From a virus, in the IMG/VR virus record IMGVR_UViG_3300048672_000495, positions 1-55,126 of that record: a stretch of 55,126 nucleotides of DNA, one strand, 5' to 3'. The position numbers and the translations under genes were made by a program. Below, in pieces: positions 1,464 through 19,234 of this stretch (positions are counted from its first letter, which is position 1; each line of letters starts with the position of its first letter). The notes under the pieces were generated by a model. It had not been told where the DNA came from, did no database searches, and saw only the letters and a program-made list of their open reading frames with translations.

Positions 1464-1812
1464 GATTCCCCTTAAAGTTCACTCCTATAAGTAGGATGGT
1501 TACCTACTTACTGGGCTAAACTCTAACTCTAGCAATTAATAGCGGAGGTGGTTACTCGTTGCAACAAGCCACTACGTCACTTTAAGCGTACAAATTCTAA
1601 CGCACTATTAACTGTGTTAGGTAATAGATAACCCTAACGCCCCTTATTGACTAGTCCATAGAGCAAAATATTATGCATCAAGGATCGGGTTTATTACTGA
1701 TATGGGGCAGTACTACCCATACGTTGTAATCACGTGTTTTGCGAGATTCATCACCCGCTTTCTAGTTGTAATTAGACTACACGCTATCCTAGTATTACGT
1801 GCTTGAATTTTT
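1464..1812 (-). other. Structured non-coding tract between tRNA-Leu and small genes
   Basis: No convincing ORF in ~350 bases. Contains a perfect 8-bp hairpin (1488-1495 with 1503-1510, 7-base loop) and several weaker ones. It lies downstream of tRNA-Leu on the minus strand, so it may be a trailer or a separate RNA of the same transcript. Strand is inferred from the flanking tRNA and genes. Confidence 0.5.
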
Positions 1813-1896
1813 TGGTACCCAAGAAGAGACTCGAACTCTTAATCCTCGCGGCGGTGGCTTCTAAGACCACAGTGTATACCATTCCACCACTTGGGC
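1813..1896 (-). tRNA. tRNA-Leu (anticodon TAG)
   Basis: Class II tRNA with encoded CCA. Acceptor GCCCAAG/CTTGGGT; anticodon stem GTGGT/GCCAC, loop CTTAGAA, anticodon TAG; long variable arm; T arm AAGAG-TTCGAGT-CTCTT. It reads CUA, a Leu codon used very often in the AT-rich phage genes, so codon compensation is a plausible role. Confidence 0.93.
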
Positions 1897-2551
1897 ATAT
1901 TCTTATTAAACAGCAGCCTATTCATCACTTTATTATTGAATAGCATTCATATGTTAAACAACTAATTGCGTTAAGTTGTGTGCACCATCAGTGATATGTT
2001 GTTTTTGTACCGTCGTACTGGTATGCGCCTGCGCCTGTGAGGACTCGAACCCCAACTACCCCACATACTGCTGATTAATAAAAACATCCTGCTTACTAGC
2101 GTACAGGTCGATCTCTTTCCATCGAAGGTGGCTATATCACAGTTTAGCTACTGACTTGTCATCTTTACCCTAGGAAGTGCTACAAGCATGCACTATTATA
2201 AAACTAGCTGTCTACTACTGTTCCATTAAAGGTAAGACTTAGTATAATTCGTCCCAGTTCCACATCTTTTTAACACAAGTCCTGTGGTTGCTTGTGAGCT
2301 AGTATATTGGTACCAGGTACTGGAATCGAACCAGTGTTCGCCGCCTTATCTAGACGGTGCTTAAGAGTTTATAAGGCTCCCTCATAGGCCAACATTAGCA
2401 AACCTGGCATAAATCAAATATTGAATAGTACAGGTCGTGGTAGTTCTAATACACCCAGTTGACGCTGTTTTTTGCCATCCGTCAAAATGACCGCACAGTT
2501 ACTCTTTATATTCGTGCGCCTATACTATTCAATATGTAATCTTCCCATCGA
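1897..2551 (-). ncRNA. Structured non-coding RNA tract with its own promoter
   Basis: 655 bases without a credible gene. Transcription should start near 2551 from the promoter at 2558-2586. The first domain is closed by a perfect 13-bp stem (2418-2430 with 2523-2535) enclosing ~92 bases with smaller hairpins. Next comes the unusual tRNA at 2308-2408. Further down, a T-arm-like sequence (2038-2054) has no convincing cloverleaf around it. The hairpins CTATTCA/TGAATAG and CAACT/AGTTG follow. Whether this is one RNA or several processed pieces is unknown. Confidence 0.6.
2308..2408 (-). tRNA. Atypical tRNA, isotype unresolved
   Basis: Acceptor GCCAGGT/ACCTGGT, discriminator A, encoded CCA, and a perfect T arm ACTGG-TTCGATT-CCAGT leave little doubt that this is tRNA-derived. 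However it is 101 nt long and the core does not fold canonically: candidate anticodon loops lie around TTATAAA and TAGATAA, and a 7-bp GCCTTAT/ATAAGGC pairing competes with both. It may be a class II tRNA with an extra-long variable arm, an interrupted tRNA or a tRNA mimic. Confidence 0.6.
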
Positions 2552-2557
2552 ATACAT

Positions 2558-2586
2558 ATTATACACCAAAGATTGAATAAAATCAA
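2558..2586 (-). promoter_or_regulatory. Sigma-70 promoter of the 1.9-2.55 kb ncRNA tract
   Basis: On the minus strand TTGATT (2581-2586), a 17-bp spacer, and TATAAT (2558-2563). It overlaps the end of the 43-residue gene and points into the structured tract containing the atypical tRNA and tRNA-Leu. Confidence 0.75.
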
Positions 2587-3847: not shown

Positions 3848-4288
3848 ATTACCTTTGTTAGTTTATTTTAGTGAAATGGGCCAGCGGTCCGGTCTCCCGC
3901 ATTGAAGTGTATATACACAGCTACTCACGATTGTATTATGACCCATAGTAGAATACACATCTTGCTTATGTGGCTTTAGGGCACGAAAGCAATCGCGACC
4001 CATAACTTGATTGAAGTATGGAAAACCATACTTCCTACCACAGATTATGTACTCTACTATAAGTCCCGCTTACTCTTTGCAGGGTCGGAACACTAGCCCT
4101 CTCCGACAGCTTGGGCACACATCACTTAGTTCGATCCGTAGCTTAGATGTGCAAATGAATCACCTACGGCTTCTGAATTAATCCCGGTTACCAAACTTCC
4201 GGGTTGCTCTAGATTTAAGTATACTTAAATCGGCAAGGCTCACGTTTCAATGAGAATCCTAGATCACATCCATCTAGTAGGGTTCTTT
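3848..4288 (-). other. Structured non-coding tract with 20-bp palindrome
   Basis: 441 bases without a gene. Contains the second copy of the TAAGTCCCGSTTACTC element (~4060), a perfect 20-bp palindrome at 4212-4231 (GATTTAAGTA and its mirror), a CCCGG/CCGGG hairpin at ~4184-4202, a CCGTAG/CTACGG pairing near 4137-4175 and a CTAGAT/ATCTAG hairpin just after the downstream end of the 4289-4573 gene. Strand inferred. Confidence 0.45.
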
Positions 4289-4573: not shown

Positions 4574-5481
4574 TTTATTATTAGTTAGTTGTTTGGTGGT
4601 CCATCAAGGTAACGATCCTCCTGTCCCGATGGGAAACGGGGTTACAGCCCGCGCACTCTCCTTAAGTGTCTAATGAACCAATATTAAAATATAGTAGCTA
4701 ATCGGCCATGCCCTGCTCCGGTTTACCGGCTACAGCTTCCCTCTTTCAAGTTTCTCCGATCGGTCCCCCAATCCCTAACTTATGCTTTGGGCTCTAAGGG
4801 TTTCTCTTACTACTATAAGTATTTTCTGAAGGGCCCGGACGGTTATTTGGGGCTCGGTCCCATACATATGCACGTTAGTCTTATATACTTTTAAATATAA
4901 GGTGTGTTCTGGAAAGGAGATAGTGGCAATTGTTTACGCGGTTGTCCCGTATATCAGAAAATATATTAAAGTATAACTAATACGACAGCATTGCCGCAAT
5001 GACTACCTTTTCAGTATGCCAGGATATCACAATTTAACATTCCTGCCGAGCTTGCGGGTCGGGGTCTGTGCGTGATTGCATAGGGCACTGTTAGTTATAC
5101 TTTAATATAAAAATGGGTCTACGAGTCCAATTGTATAGCTAATTCACAATTACGTAGTCTAGTCACGCCTCCACTTATCGTCAATCGGTATCGGAGCTTA
5201 TCCCGAATCCCAATCTATTGTAGCTTCATCGAACGCCGCTGACATACCGATCAGCTTCACCCATTAAGATTAAATAGTTCCTGGCCAGGCTAGATAATTT
5301 TCTCACTTGCTTCCGCCTACTAGTGACAAACAGGGGCAGAAGTATACGACTTCCGCGGCCTATGTCTCGTTCCCATTGTCTTGTATCCAATTATCTTACT
5401 ATTTAATCTTAATGATCCAGCTTACTTGATACTGGGCTAATAATTTGTGGCTATTAGCAGTGCGCCATTTCTCACTTCAGA
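4574..5481 (-). ncRNA. Large ornate structured RNA candidate (~900 nt)
   Basis: About 0.9 kb with no credible ORF and a dedicated minus-strand promoter immediately upstream (5488-5516). Two domains are closed by very long perfect stems: 17 bp (5262-5278 with 5398-5414), with a nested 7-bp stem (5293-5299 with 5389-5395), and 19 bp (4962-4980 with 5091-5109) enclosing ~110 bases that hold CATTG/CAATG and CCGA/TCGG hairpins. A third, weaker long-range stem pairs 4690-4697 with 4810-4817. Size, stem-rich domain plan and location among phage tRNAs recall GOLLD/ROOL RNAs; this is inference, not identification. Confidence 0.65.
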
Positions 5482-5487
5482 ATATAT

Positions 5488-5516
5488 ATTATAATCCAAA
5501 ATACTTCGCAATTCAA
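5488..5516 (-). promoter_or_regulatory. Sigma-70 promoter of the 4.6-5.5 kb ncRNA
   Basis: Minus-strand TTGAAT (5511-5516), 17-bp spacer, TATAAT (5488-5493). It lies in the gap just after the stop of the cytochrome-b-like gene and points only into non-coding sequence. Confidence 0.8.
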
Positions 5517-5523
5517 GCTTAAA

Positions 5524-5928
5524 TTAATACATGTGAACAGCAACTATGTGTACCGTTACCGCAATAATCATCAGTATTACGAATGGTTTATGATAAATAT
5601 GCCAATGTACAAACATTATAACATACTTATCATGTAGATGGCCCATAGTATGTATTACTTTATTATAAAGATACCTACCATATACACCACTTATAGCCAC
5701 TATCATTAATGATATGAACGCTATTGTAGCATTCAGACTACCAAAATATAATCTAGTATGAGCAATAACTATAAAAGGAGTTATTGCTCCTATAAACATA
5801 TGAAGATGGAACCATAAACGAATGTTACCACCAATCCAGGGAAAATTCTTTCTAACGTGGTACAATAGTAGTATTAGTATTAGAAATCCCGAAAATATCC
5901 CTGTTTGGTATGAGTAACTATTGTTCAT
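5524..5928 (-). CDS. Histidine-rich cytochrome-b/ferric-reductase-like membrane protein
   Basis: 134 residues with four hydrophobic segments. His residues cluster at membrane edges (41, 43, 57, 93, 97, 99, 108, 110, 113, 127, 132), and the stretch IAHTRLYFGSLN followed by SGVYGRYLYNKVIH resembles the H-x(5)-G-S-L-N and GRYLY-x(2)-IH signatures of bacterial cytochrome-b-like membrane proteins. Bis-His heme binding and a transmembrane redox role are therefore likely by analogy, not shown. It overlaps the upstream gene by 11 bases. Confidence 0.65.
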   Translation of the reverse strand: MNNSYSYQTGIFSGFLILILLLYHVRKNFPWIGGNIRLWFHLHMFIGAITPFIVIAHTRLYFGSLNATIAFISLMIVAISGVYGRYLYNKVIHTMGHLHDKYVIMFVHWHIYHKPFVILMIIAVTVHIVAVHMY

Positions 5929-6109
5929 CCTTATACTTTTTTATTGCTTCCGCATCCAACGAACAATACACCCTAAATTTATCTTTTCCTGCTTCGTCAT
6001 AAAAAGCTTCAGCCATTTTTTCAAGTGACTCGAACTTTTCAGATGGAAGTGAGTAATATCTACTTAGGAACGCAGATACTAGAAATTCTTTGCTATAACC
6101 TGCTGCCAT
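5918..6109 (-). CDS. Hypothetical small protein
   Basis: 63 residues from the ATG at 6109, preceded by AAAGGG; an in-frame TTG five codons upstream is less likely. Sequence MAAGYSKEFLVSAFLSRYYS continues into an acidic/basic helix. The consensus promoter at 6131-6159 lies just upstream, making this the first gene of a unit with the cytochrome-b-like protein. Function unknown. Confidence 0.65.
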   Translation of the reverse strand: MAAGYSKEFLVSAFLSRYYSLPSEKFESLEKMAEAFYDEAGKDKFRVYCSLDAEAIKKYKDEQ

Positions 6110-6130
6110 AAAAATCCCTTTCAAGCCTTA

Positions 6131-14790: not shown

Positions 14791-15082
14791 CTTATTCAAA
14801 ACGAAACCAGAAGAAAAAAAAGAAATTGTAACAGGTCCCCCTACAAGTATTACACCTGCACCAAAACTACCTGAGCCCCCAATGTGGACAGTCGGGCCAT
14901 CAAATGATGGTACACAAATAGTGTTGTGTATACAGCATGATTGTACAATCATTAGGATGTATATGAATGCAGAGGCTACGGAATCGTTGATTCAATCGCT
15001 TGATTCCCTTCTTCAGCCGATGTTGACCGTATTGCAAAAAAATTCGGTTTTAGAGCCATTTCCAACGATCGAAACAGCATGA
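14783..15082 (+). CDS. Hypothetical protein
   Basis: 99 residues. Starts MFNLFKTKPEEKKEIVTGPP, Pro-rich to about residue 35, then a small domain (QIVLCIQHDCTIIRMYMN) and a C-terminal helix. Overlaps the previous gene by 8 bases and the next by 4 (ATGA), so it belongs to the same unit as the HTH protein. Confidence 0.65.
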   Translation: MFNLFKTKPEEKKEIVTGPPTSITPAPKLPEPPMWTVGPSNDGTQIVLCIQHDCTIIRMYMNAEATESLIQSLDSLLQPMLTVLQKNSVLEPFPTIETA

Positions 15083-15378
15083 AGTACGATAATGAAACTA
15101 CCAAGAAATTAGTTGCTGATTACGCCTCAGGCGTGTCAGTTGCGCTCCTTGCGGAGCAATTAGACGTCCCTGAGCGCTCTATAATTGCCAAACTGGCCTC
15201 ACTTGGTGTATACAAGAAGAAGGAATACCTTAATAAACAGGGTGAACCGCCCATAAAAAAGGAAGAATACGTCGAGCGTATTGCAAATTTGCTAAAAGTC
15301 AATGTAGAACTACTAGAATCTCTTGAAAAGGTCAATAAAAACGTCTTAAAGATGCTAGAAGACGCATTAACTTCCTAA
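15079..15378 (+). CDS. Putative HTH DNA-binding regulator, paralog 1
   Basis: 99 residues. ADYASGVSVALLAEQLDVPE then RSIIAKLASLGVYKKKEY reads as a helix-turn-helix; the C-terminus is a helix VELLESLEKVNKNVLKMLE. The same fold and the core RS-x-IAKL-x(2)-GVY recur in the proteins at 16999 and 18110. Similar small proteins are common in T4-like and marine phages. A transcription-regulatory role is inferred from the fold and from the repeated operator-like DNA nearby. Confidence 0.7.
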   Translation: MKYDNETTKKLVADYASGVSVALLAEQLDVPERSIIAKLASLGVYKKKEYLNKQGEPPIKKEEYVERIANLLKVNVELLESLEKVNKNVLKMLEDALTS

Positions 15379-16998: not shown

Positions 16999-17310
16999 TC
17001 AGGCTTCGAGAGCCTTCAGGACGAACATCAGAGCCGGACCCGTGGCCTTTTCCAGCGACTCCACCTGTTCTTCGGACGCGCCGACCGCCTTGGCGATCTT
17101 GGCAACCATTTCCGCCTTCAGCATCTCACGCTTGCCGGCTTCCTTGGCCTTGGGGACGTACACACCTTCCTTCGACAGCTTGGCGATCACCGAGCGTGCC
17201 GACTTGCCCAGCTTGACAGCCAGAGCTTCCACAGCCACACCAGCTTGATAGCCGGCAACCAGTTCCGCAACCTGTTCGGCGGAATAATTCGCAACCTTTT
17301 CAGCAGACAT
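16999..17310 (-). CDS. Putative HTH DNA-binding regulator, paralog 2
   Basis: 103 residues, homologous to the proteins at 15079 and 18110: LVAGYQAGVAVEALAVKLGK then ARSVIAKLSKEGVYVPK, with helix QVESLEKATGPALMFVLKAL at the end. SD AGGAGAG before the ATG and a clean promoter at 17370-17398. Codon choice is much more G+C-rich than in paralog 1 (for example GCC, CTG, AAG), so the copies have had different histories. Confidence 0.75.
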   Translation of the reverse strand: MSAEKVANYSAEQVAELVAGYQAGVAVEALAVKLGKSARSVIAKLSKEGVYVPKAKEAGKREMLKAEMVAKIAKAVGASEEQVESLEKATGPALMFVLKALEA

Positions 17311-18083: not shown

Positions 18084-18111
18084 AATCAATAGGGGTTTCC
18101 CCCTATTGATT
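18084..18111 (-). terminator. 12-bp hairpin at the end of HTH paralog 3
   Basis: AATCAATAGGGG-TTTC-CCCCTATTGATT overlaps the stop codon of the 18110 gene. No long T run, so it could be a terminator or an RNA-stabilising end. A shorter relative (TAGGG-ATTTA-CCCTA) lies near 18031. Confidence 0.6.
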
Positions 18112-18502
18112 ATTCGCCTACCGGGGCGACTTCGCCAGCCCTTTCCTCGCCATTTTCCAGCGGTTTGCTGTTGGCGAGCGCCGTGAAAATTTTCACCAGA
18201 GCGGTTTTGTTCGCCTTTGTGAGCGATTCCGTTTCCGATTCGGTCAACTTCAAAACCGCGCCGATCGCATCGGCGTGCGCGTCTTTCTTGACCGGCTTTT
18301 CGCCGTTCTTGCTGACATACGCCTTCGCCTTGTATACGCCTTCTTTCGTGAGCTTGGCGATCACGCTGCGAGCAGTCTTGCCGATGGCAACAGCCATCTT
18401 TTCGACGTTTTCCTTACTCGCGTCGGCAGCGTAGCCCGCGAGAATGGTTGCGGTTTGCGCATCGGTGTAATTCGGTGCCTTGACAGTCTTTTCGGTAGCC
18501 AT
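18110..18502 (-). CDS. Putative HTH DNA-binding regulator, paralog 3
   Basis: 130 residues. Same core as paralogs 1 and 2 (KTARSVIAKLTKEGVYKAK) preceded by an Ala-rich helix and followed by a C-terminal extension (ANSKPLENGEERAGEVAPVG) absent from the others. SD AAGGGC before the ATG; promoter at 18541-18569. Probably regulates genes of this island; target unknown. Confidence 0.75.
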   Translation of the reverse strand: MATEKTVKAPNYTDAQTATILAGYAADASKENVEKMAVAIGKTARSVIAKLTKEGVYKAKAYVSKNGEKPVKKDAHADAIGAVLKLTESETESLTKANKTALVKIFTALANSKPLENGEERAGEVAPVGE

Positions 18503-18660: not shown

Positions 18661-18735
18661 TTACAAACTGTTACAATTGCATTTTCCTACCATATGCCCG
18701 CGTGCATGTCAAGCAGTATTACAAACTGTTACAAT
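18661..18735 (+). repeat. Two copies of the TTACAAACTGTTACAAT box
   Basis: Exact copies at 18661-18677 and 18719-18735. Each is a direct repeat of TTACAA with a 10-bp period, the geometry of tandem binding by OmpR/PhoB-type regulators (known family behaviour; which protein binds here is unknown). A third, degenerate copy at 18754-18770 abuts promoter P3. Confidence 0.75.
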
Positions 18736-18753
18736 TGCCCGGCCTGGGGCCTG

Positions 18754-18807
18754 TTACATCTTGTTACAAAAAACCGCTTGACGCGGGCCAAAATTATATG
18801 ATATAAT
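18754..18807 (+). promoter_or_regulatory. Plus-strand promoter P3 with box and inverted repeat
   Basis: Box TTACATCTTGTTACAAA (18754-18770), 7-base gap, TTGACG (18778-18783), 18-bp spacer, TATAAT (18802-18807). The inverted repeat CCAAAATTATAT-G-ATATAATTTTGG covers spacer and -10; GGCGC follows. Transcription runs into the palindrome AAGTTAGTGAGT-ACTCACTAACTT and then the terminator at 18852. Confidence 0.8.
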
Positions 18808-18851
18808 TTTGGCGCCCGAAGTTAGTGAGTACTCACTAACTTAGTATATAA

Positions 18852-18882
18852 AATAATATGGGGCATATTGCCCCATATTATT
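18852..18882. terminator. Bidirectional terminator-like palindrome
   Basis: AATAATATGGGGC, 5-base loop, GCCCCATATTATT; 13-bp stem overlapping the stop of the 18881 gene. It can end the minus-strand gene and the short P3 transcript. Confidence 0.75.
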
Positions 18883-19234
18883 AAACTATAACCCAGTATC
18901 TGTCGAGTAGATACCGCGCCCACGGTTTGAATTGTGTTTTCTCACCGTGGCCGAATCTATACCCATTTTCGTGCTGCCAGATATGGATATATTCGTGAAA
19001 CAAACACCCGAGCATTTTCTCCAGAGTATCCGAATACTGTTCAGATACTAGAATAACGTGAGTTTTTTTGTTCTTGCCGAGATACCCCGGATAATGGTAT
19101 AATGCTGCACATTCGTCACCATCCTGGTATATATGTTTCACGCGGAAAACATATACCGGCAATTTTACGTCGAATATCGAATCCATTAGCGGACCATATG
19201 GATTCGATATTCTTTGCATTTTGTTATTTGGCAC
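18881..19234 (-). CDS. SprT-like zinc metalloprotease domain protein 1, GTG start
   Basis: 117 residues. LFHEYIHIWQHENG contains the HExxH zincin motif (H80, E81, H84) and GYRFGHGEKTQFKPW could give the third ligand, as in SprT-type proteins (HExxH then GHGxxW). The GTG at 19234 has the SD AAAGGA and overlaps the exonuclease stop by 11 bases. Proposed function: intracellular proteolysis, substrate unknown. One of three HExxH proteins within 3.5 kb. Confidence 0.75.
   Translation of the reverse strand: MPNNKMQRISNPYGPLMDSIFDVKLPVYVFRVKHIYQDGDECAALYHYPGYLGKNKKTHVILVSEQYSDTLEKMLGCLFHEYIHIWQHENGYRFGHGEKTQFKPWARYLLDRYWVIV

Follow-up and report, generated by a model that had tools for sequence, protein, structure and literature searches.

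The window, that is, the whole stretch of DNA analysed here, comprises 55,126 nt (positions 1–55,126 of IMG/VR record IMGVR_UViG_3300048672_000495, itself a fragment). Its minus strand carries a long non-coding stretch, here called RNA1, between a promoter-like site and a tRNA-Tyr gene. Judged by its terminase, which matches T5-like phages at 45–47%, and by a protease-capsid fusion, the phage is a distant T5 relative. The features of the locus are as follows.

5918–6124, minus strand: gene for a conserved 68-aa protein, the locus marker in relatives (sequence comparison with relatives)
5524–5928, minus strand: gene for a predicted membrane protein of 134 aa that separates the 68-aa gene from RNA1 (no relative in viral contigs)
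5488–5516, minus strand: promoter-like site of RNA1, TTGAAT-17-TATAAT, directly past the stop of ORF 5524–5928
4680–5487, minus strand: RNA1, putative non-coding transcript body from promoter to tRNA-Tyr (putative ends; no ORF of at least 60 aa, long-stem statistics)
5398–5414, minus strand: 5' arm of the 17-bp perfect stem, domain 1 (inverted-repeat search)
5262–5278, minus strand: 3' arm of the 17-bp perfect stem, domain 1 (inverted-repeat search)
5091–5109, minus strand: 5' arm of the 19-bp perfect stem, domain 2 (inverted-repeat search)
4962–4980, minus strand: 3' arm of the 19-bp perfect stem, domain 2 (inverted-repeat search)
4690–4817, minus strand: weaker predicted third domain, closed by ~9 bp (4809–4817/4690–4698; minimum-energy folding only)
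4594–4679, minus strand: divergent tRNA-Tyr(GUA) with encoded CCA and T-loop AUCGUUA (ARAGORN at 70% threshold; BLAST to a tRNA of Vibrio phage F86)
4289–4573, minus strand: 94-aa ORF 3' of tRNA-Tyr (no relative in viral contigs)

RNA1 is ~800 nt long and holds no ORF of at least 60 aa (longest, 54 aa), in agreement with the first-pass annotation of this DNA, which had reported no ORF. The promoter-like site, for which that annotation gave no strand, is present on the minus strand; matches of this kind are no more frequent in the first 12 kb than expected (41 against 44.6). The site had also been described as aimed only at non-coding sequence, which proved incorrect: the 3' 86 nt are the tRNA-Tyr(GUA) gene, followed by the 94-aa ORF. 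This tRNA, which has an acceptor stem, is missed by ARAGORN at standard settings and was found at a relaxed threshold after a Vibrio phage BLAST match pointed there. A search for intron-containing tRNAs at relaxed thresholds returned noise only. The T-loop AUCGUUA, common to the window and phages L157 and L219, replaces the usual UUCGA-type loop, and the 54–58 pair would be swapped.

No other perfect inverted repeat in the 55-kb window with a gap of up to 400 nt is as long as the 19-bp and 17-bp repeats, the next being 16 bp, and among 200 dinucleotide shuffles of the stretch (4680–5523) none reached 19 bp (best 14, mean 8.4). Both stems stand as first annotated, and so do the sizes of the domains that they close, the 17-bp stem enclosing 119 nt and the 19-bp stem 110 nt. 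The label of multi-hairpin domains is not supported: with their stems the two domains fold at z -3.3 and -3.5, whereas their interiors lie at the chance level of the shuffles (z +0.07 and +1.04), so that only the stems are exceptional. RNA1 as a whole reaches a fold z of only -1.62. We infer that RNA1 is transcribed and stable.

Comparison with known phage RNAs

GOLLD and ROOL form cages made of RNA alone, with no known function. Their genes lie close to the tRNA islands of phages, and the linkers of GOLLD can carry tRNAs (PMC12286853). RNA1 resembles GOLLD in size class, phage origin, nearby tRNA genes and the tRNA that GOLLD sometimes holds, and it resembles ROOL as a large phage RNA near tRNA islands (PMC12286853). 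Rfam scans of the window and of the region, at gathering and relaxed thresholds, returned tRNAs and chance matches only. The GOLLD model (RF02032), which represents the conserved 3' region, gave no match at E up to 1 in the region or up to 10 in a direct search; the ROOL model (RF03087) gave none in the Rfam scans or in a direct search whose control genomes were also silent. By these model searches, RNA1 is not GOLLD, matches no other Rfam family and is probably not ROOL. The idea of GOLLD or ROOL membership is not borne out, with the reservation that the ROOL positive control was silent, while the evidence does support a large non-coding phage RNA that adjoins tRNA genes.

A self-assembling scaffold or cage of GOLLD or ROOL type, its long stems acting as rigid struts and its tRNA as cargo, would account for the size, the phage origin and the tRNA neighbours, in keeping with the tRNA-island location of both families and the tRNAs in GOLLD linkers (PMC12286853). 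We consider it unlikely, given the missing GOLLD and ROOL matches (the latter with its silent control), domain interiors without excess stability, and a locus that varies in length and loses domains among relatives, as the conserved core of a cage would not be expected to do.

The closest relative in kind, which the first-pass annotation overlooked, is found in T5 itself. The T5 record lists RNAX (719 nt, labelled "stable RNA with unknown functions"), which is flanked by promoter P16-17 and tRNA-Arg; the T5 tRNA cluster also holds several stable RNAs of 73–172 nt, annotated without function. No T5 stable RNA belongs to an Rfam family, and a search of the open-access literature on them found none. 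Both RNA1 and RNAX are non-coding, run to hundreds of nt and sit within a T5-type tRNA region, where a promoter immediately precedes them and a tRNA follows. Homologs of RNAX (alignment A1) have a 5' stem in common, in which compensatory changes occur; the insert of this stem is a few nt in T5 and ~190 nt or more in others; their build is a long AT-rich closing stem with variable inserts and a tRNA-like part inside. Unlike RNA1, RNAX precedes tRNA-Arg rather than tRNA-Tyr and has other neighbour genes. The two have no sequence or profile match, and the RNAX profile matches ordinary tRNAs only.

The smaller T5 RNAs named RNAI, RNAIII, RNAIV, RNA1, RNA2 and RNA2H are likewise non-coding and lie in the tRNA cluster. 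Some form domains of ~105 nt with a terminal stem at their base: RNAIII and RNAIV fold in this way, with end stems of 8–12 bp. They differ from the RNA1 of the window in end stems of at most 12 bp and in the lack of sequence similarity. RNA1 thus belongs with the large non-coding RNAs that phages encode in their tRNA regions, RNAX-like in place and build but not in sequence, and as part of our preferred explanation we lean towards regarding it as distantly equivalent in kind to the stable RNAs of the T5 tRNA region, above all RNAX. The analysis ties the T5 stable RNAs to a rapidly changing set of structured RNAs, spread over a large group of T5-like phages from aquatic settings, and supplies testable stems, modules and a recurring locus.

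Long stems and covariation at related loci

The 68-aa protein is kept in all examined tRNA-region relatives that carry its locus, and its alignment led to 80 related loci. Other anchors were less productive: the 94-aa ORF, the phosphatase and the 134-aa membrane protein retrieved zero relatives, the terminase had zero matches in GTDB genomes, and the terminase and a 232-aa ORF retrieved few contigs, in whose records RNA1 had no match. Many relatives have a -10 box 7–26 nt past the stop of the 68-aa gene, and in many the order is 68-aa gene, -10 box, non-coding stretch, and tRNA-Tyr, -Pro or -Leu. Stem arms in the relatives often abut the ends of tRNAs or tRNA-like acceptors.

Perfect repeats of at least 13 bp are strongly enriched in the leaders before the first tRNA, with 27 observed versus 0.125 expected from shuffles (31 non-redundant leaders, 18.2 kb, loops of 30–350), a density of 1.48 per kb against 0.027 per kb upstream at the same loci. 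RNA1 shares this arrangement: it lies past the 68-aa gene, with the 134-aa ORF intervening, and before the first tRNA, it holds no gene-sized ORF, and its perfect closing stems of at least 13 bp exceed chance. The layout closest to the window's is that of L152/L216, with the 68-aa gene, a promoter, three long-stem domains and tRNA-Tyr (fold z -4.58). Its leader has the same position and the same tRNA as RNA1, and perfect closing stems of 21 and 17 bp; it differs in being 464 nt long, in having no sequence similarity and in containing a module missing from the window. In L142/L157, tRNA-Tyr stands directly behind the promoter with no leader, and L157/L142, L190 and L218 are syntenic, yet lack a long stem or have only a short leader before the tRNA. 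Among relatives, leaders vary in length and lose domains, and the modules between the arms are swapped, lost and gained.

Searches for RNA1 itself were negative. BLASTN against phages matched the tRNA and nothing else, neither phage records nor IMG/VR relatives nor the 80 loci reached through the 68-aa protein yielded a sequence homolog, and an exact DNA pattern scan gave no matches. Two models built from relatives, one of a giant tRNA-like RNA and one of the GCGUACCACC module, gave no match in RNA1. A new class, as the first-pass annotation had suggested, is plausible in that the long-stem layout recurs at the same position in relatives, with covariation in several; RNA1 itself remains without a homolog.

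The covariation is clearest in the tRNA-Pro group (alignment A3, 14 sequences), where RNAalifold independently found the long stem and the giant tRNA-like RNA. Both sides change in 14 of the 33 named pairs, 99.8% of cells are paired, and 0 of 500 shuffles equal this, a count that is not a probability because related sequences are non-independent; when partners were slid by 1–3 columns, a control that keeps relatedness, pairing was 30–48%. In this group the closing stem and the attached giant tRNA-like RNA covary strongly. The tRNA-Tyr group, with three sequences, has both-side changes in 2 of 12 pairs, all of them paired, and 85 of 500 shuffles match this, the sample being too small to outdo them. 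Covariation, named at the outset as the check on the stems, is thus found in relatives; for the window's own stems, RNA1 has no homolog in anything searched.

The long stems might be DNA-level inverted repeats left by mobile elements or module swapping, with the RNA an incidental leader of the tRNA transcript; the exchange of content between the arms among relatives and the HNH endonuclease genes in T5 tRNA regions fit such an origin. Yet the arms change together with pairing kept, in relatives and in RNAX homologs, the stems lie on the strand of the promoter and tRNA, and the arms abut tRNA-like acceptor ends, which makes this origin decidedly unlikely. Still less credible, and in our view highly improbable, is that the locus consists of decayed tRNA genes and intergenic debris. 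Scattered tRNAs, tRNA-like pieces and the modest fold score of RNA1 as a whole could be read in that way, but perfect stems of 17–19 bp would soon decay without selection, long stems are strongly enriched over the 31 loci, and the covariation in the tRNA-Pro group already disfavours it.

Several RNA elements of the relatives were recorded along the way. The giant tRNA-like RNA (164–185 nt; L213:5350–5515 and 12 others, alignment A4; further found in L162, L177, L181, L230 and L233) has a tRNA acceptor, D-arm, T-arm and CCA end, and at the anticodon-arm position a large insert with its own covarying helix. A recurrent RNA module of ~80–90 nt (alignment A6) has the conserved core GCGUACCACCU...GGGCGCA, in L219 GCGUACUACCU...AGGCGCA, and a closing stem of 7–14 bp whose sequence differs from phage to phage; it is carried by L152 (17240–17320), L163, L166, L187, L202, L204, L209, L217, L219 and L233. 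A permuted tmRNA (RF04321, 91–119 bits, well above the gathering score) lies in the tRNA region at L145:15993–16315, L148:13019–13375 and L150:9742–10072.

A processing model and further RNA regions of the window

The explanation we favour, with modest confidence, is that RNA1 is the non-coding leader of a tRNA transcript, a chain of domains with long stems that host RNase III would cut to free stable RNAs. A sigma-70-type transcript would start at 5488 and run down through tRNA-Tyr (4594–4679), with RNA1 as its leader and a long, perfect, AT-rich stem at the base of each domain. The stems would form co-transcriptionally and would probably be cleaved by RNase III, the obvious candidate among host enzymes, while tRNA enzymes would mature tRNA-Tyr. 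Discrete RNAs of ~110–190 nt might be freed, like T5 RNAI, RNAIII and RNAIV (103–107 nt); the ~105-nt RNAIII and RNAIV with their end stems are what such processing would release. A role of the stems in processing and protection is suggested because they lie on the same strand as promoter and tRNA, keep their pairing, and abut tRNA or tRNA-like ends while their contents vary. Speculatively, the freed RNAs could serve as scaffolds, or as decoys that counter RNases of the host or defences aimed at tRNAs. T5 tRNAs counter the PARIS defence (PMC12409363), so that counter-defence is a fair guess for RNAs of the same region.

Set against this processing model are the missing sequence homolog of RNA1, the syntenic relatives without a long stem, domain interiors no stabler than chance, and the failure of the two conserved-module models on RNA1. 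A simpler reading would take RNA1 as an ordinary 5' leader whose stems merely protect or process tRNA-Tyr, with no stable RNA freed. RNA1 does lie directly upstream of tRNA-Tyr, and a leader appears dispensable because the L142/L157 promoter adjoins tRNA-Tyr. However, a leader of up to ~1 kb with several domains goes far beyond the needs of tRNA processing, and T5 RNAX and its neighbours carry a stable-RNA annotation; we hold this reading to be quite unlikely. Extending the processing model to the whole group is more tentative, possible though somewhat doubtful: a widespread and hitherto undescribed modular class of phage RNAs, with exchangeable domains and giant tRNA-like RNAs linked by perfect stems of 13–21 bp, may head T5-type tRNA transcripts, be processed into sets of stable RNAs, and perhaps counter host RNase-based defences.

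The window contains further non-coding regions, among them ~1.1 kb behind a second promoter-like site.

2558–2586, minus strand: second promoter-like site, TTGATT-17-TATAAT, directly past the stop of ORF 2589–2726
1464–2557, minus strand: RNA2, second non-coding region, with a layout like that of RNA1 and tRNA-Leu(UAG) at 1813–1896
2418–2535, minus strand: RNA2 domain closed by 2519–2535/2418–2434 (16 of 17 Watson–Crick pairs)
2308–2414, minus strand: tRNA-like RNA of ~100 nt with a CCA end (identity of 84% to the L195 counterpart and, across 80 nt, of 89% to that of L218)
3863–4288, minus strand: third non-coding region, between two small ORFs, with strong folding (z -4.63 versus shuffles)

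The tRNA-like RNA at 2308–2414 has counterparts at L195:3110–3217 and around L218:9166–9275; the three have a near-invariant middle, GCCUUAU...AUAAGGC, and a loop of ~21 nt, while acceptor and T-arm co-change. Gaps at 14.8–24 kb left by a simple gene caller were considered as RNA and rejected, since they resemble coding sequence of other composition. The strongest local folding among the scanned windows lies at 18701–19000, on both strands (z -7 to -11). ORFs 15079–15378, 16999–17310 and 18110–18502 appear to be copies of one small protein, judged by eye from a common pattern around RSVIAKL/RSIIAKL...GVY, and a similar ORF is inserted past the 68-aa gene in some relatives.
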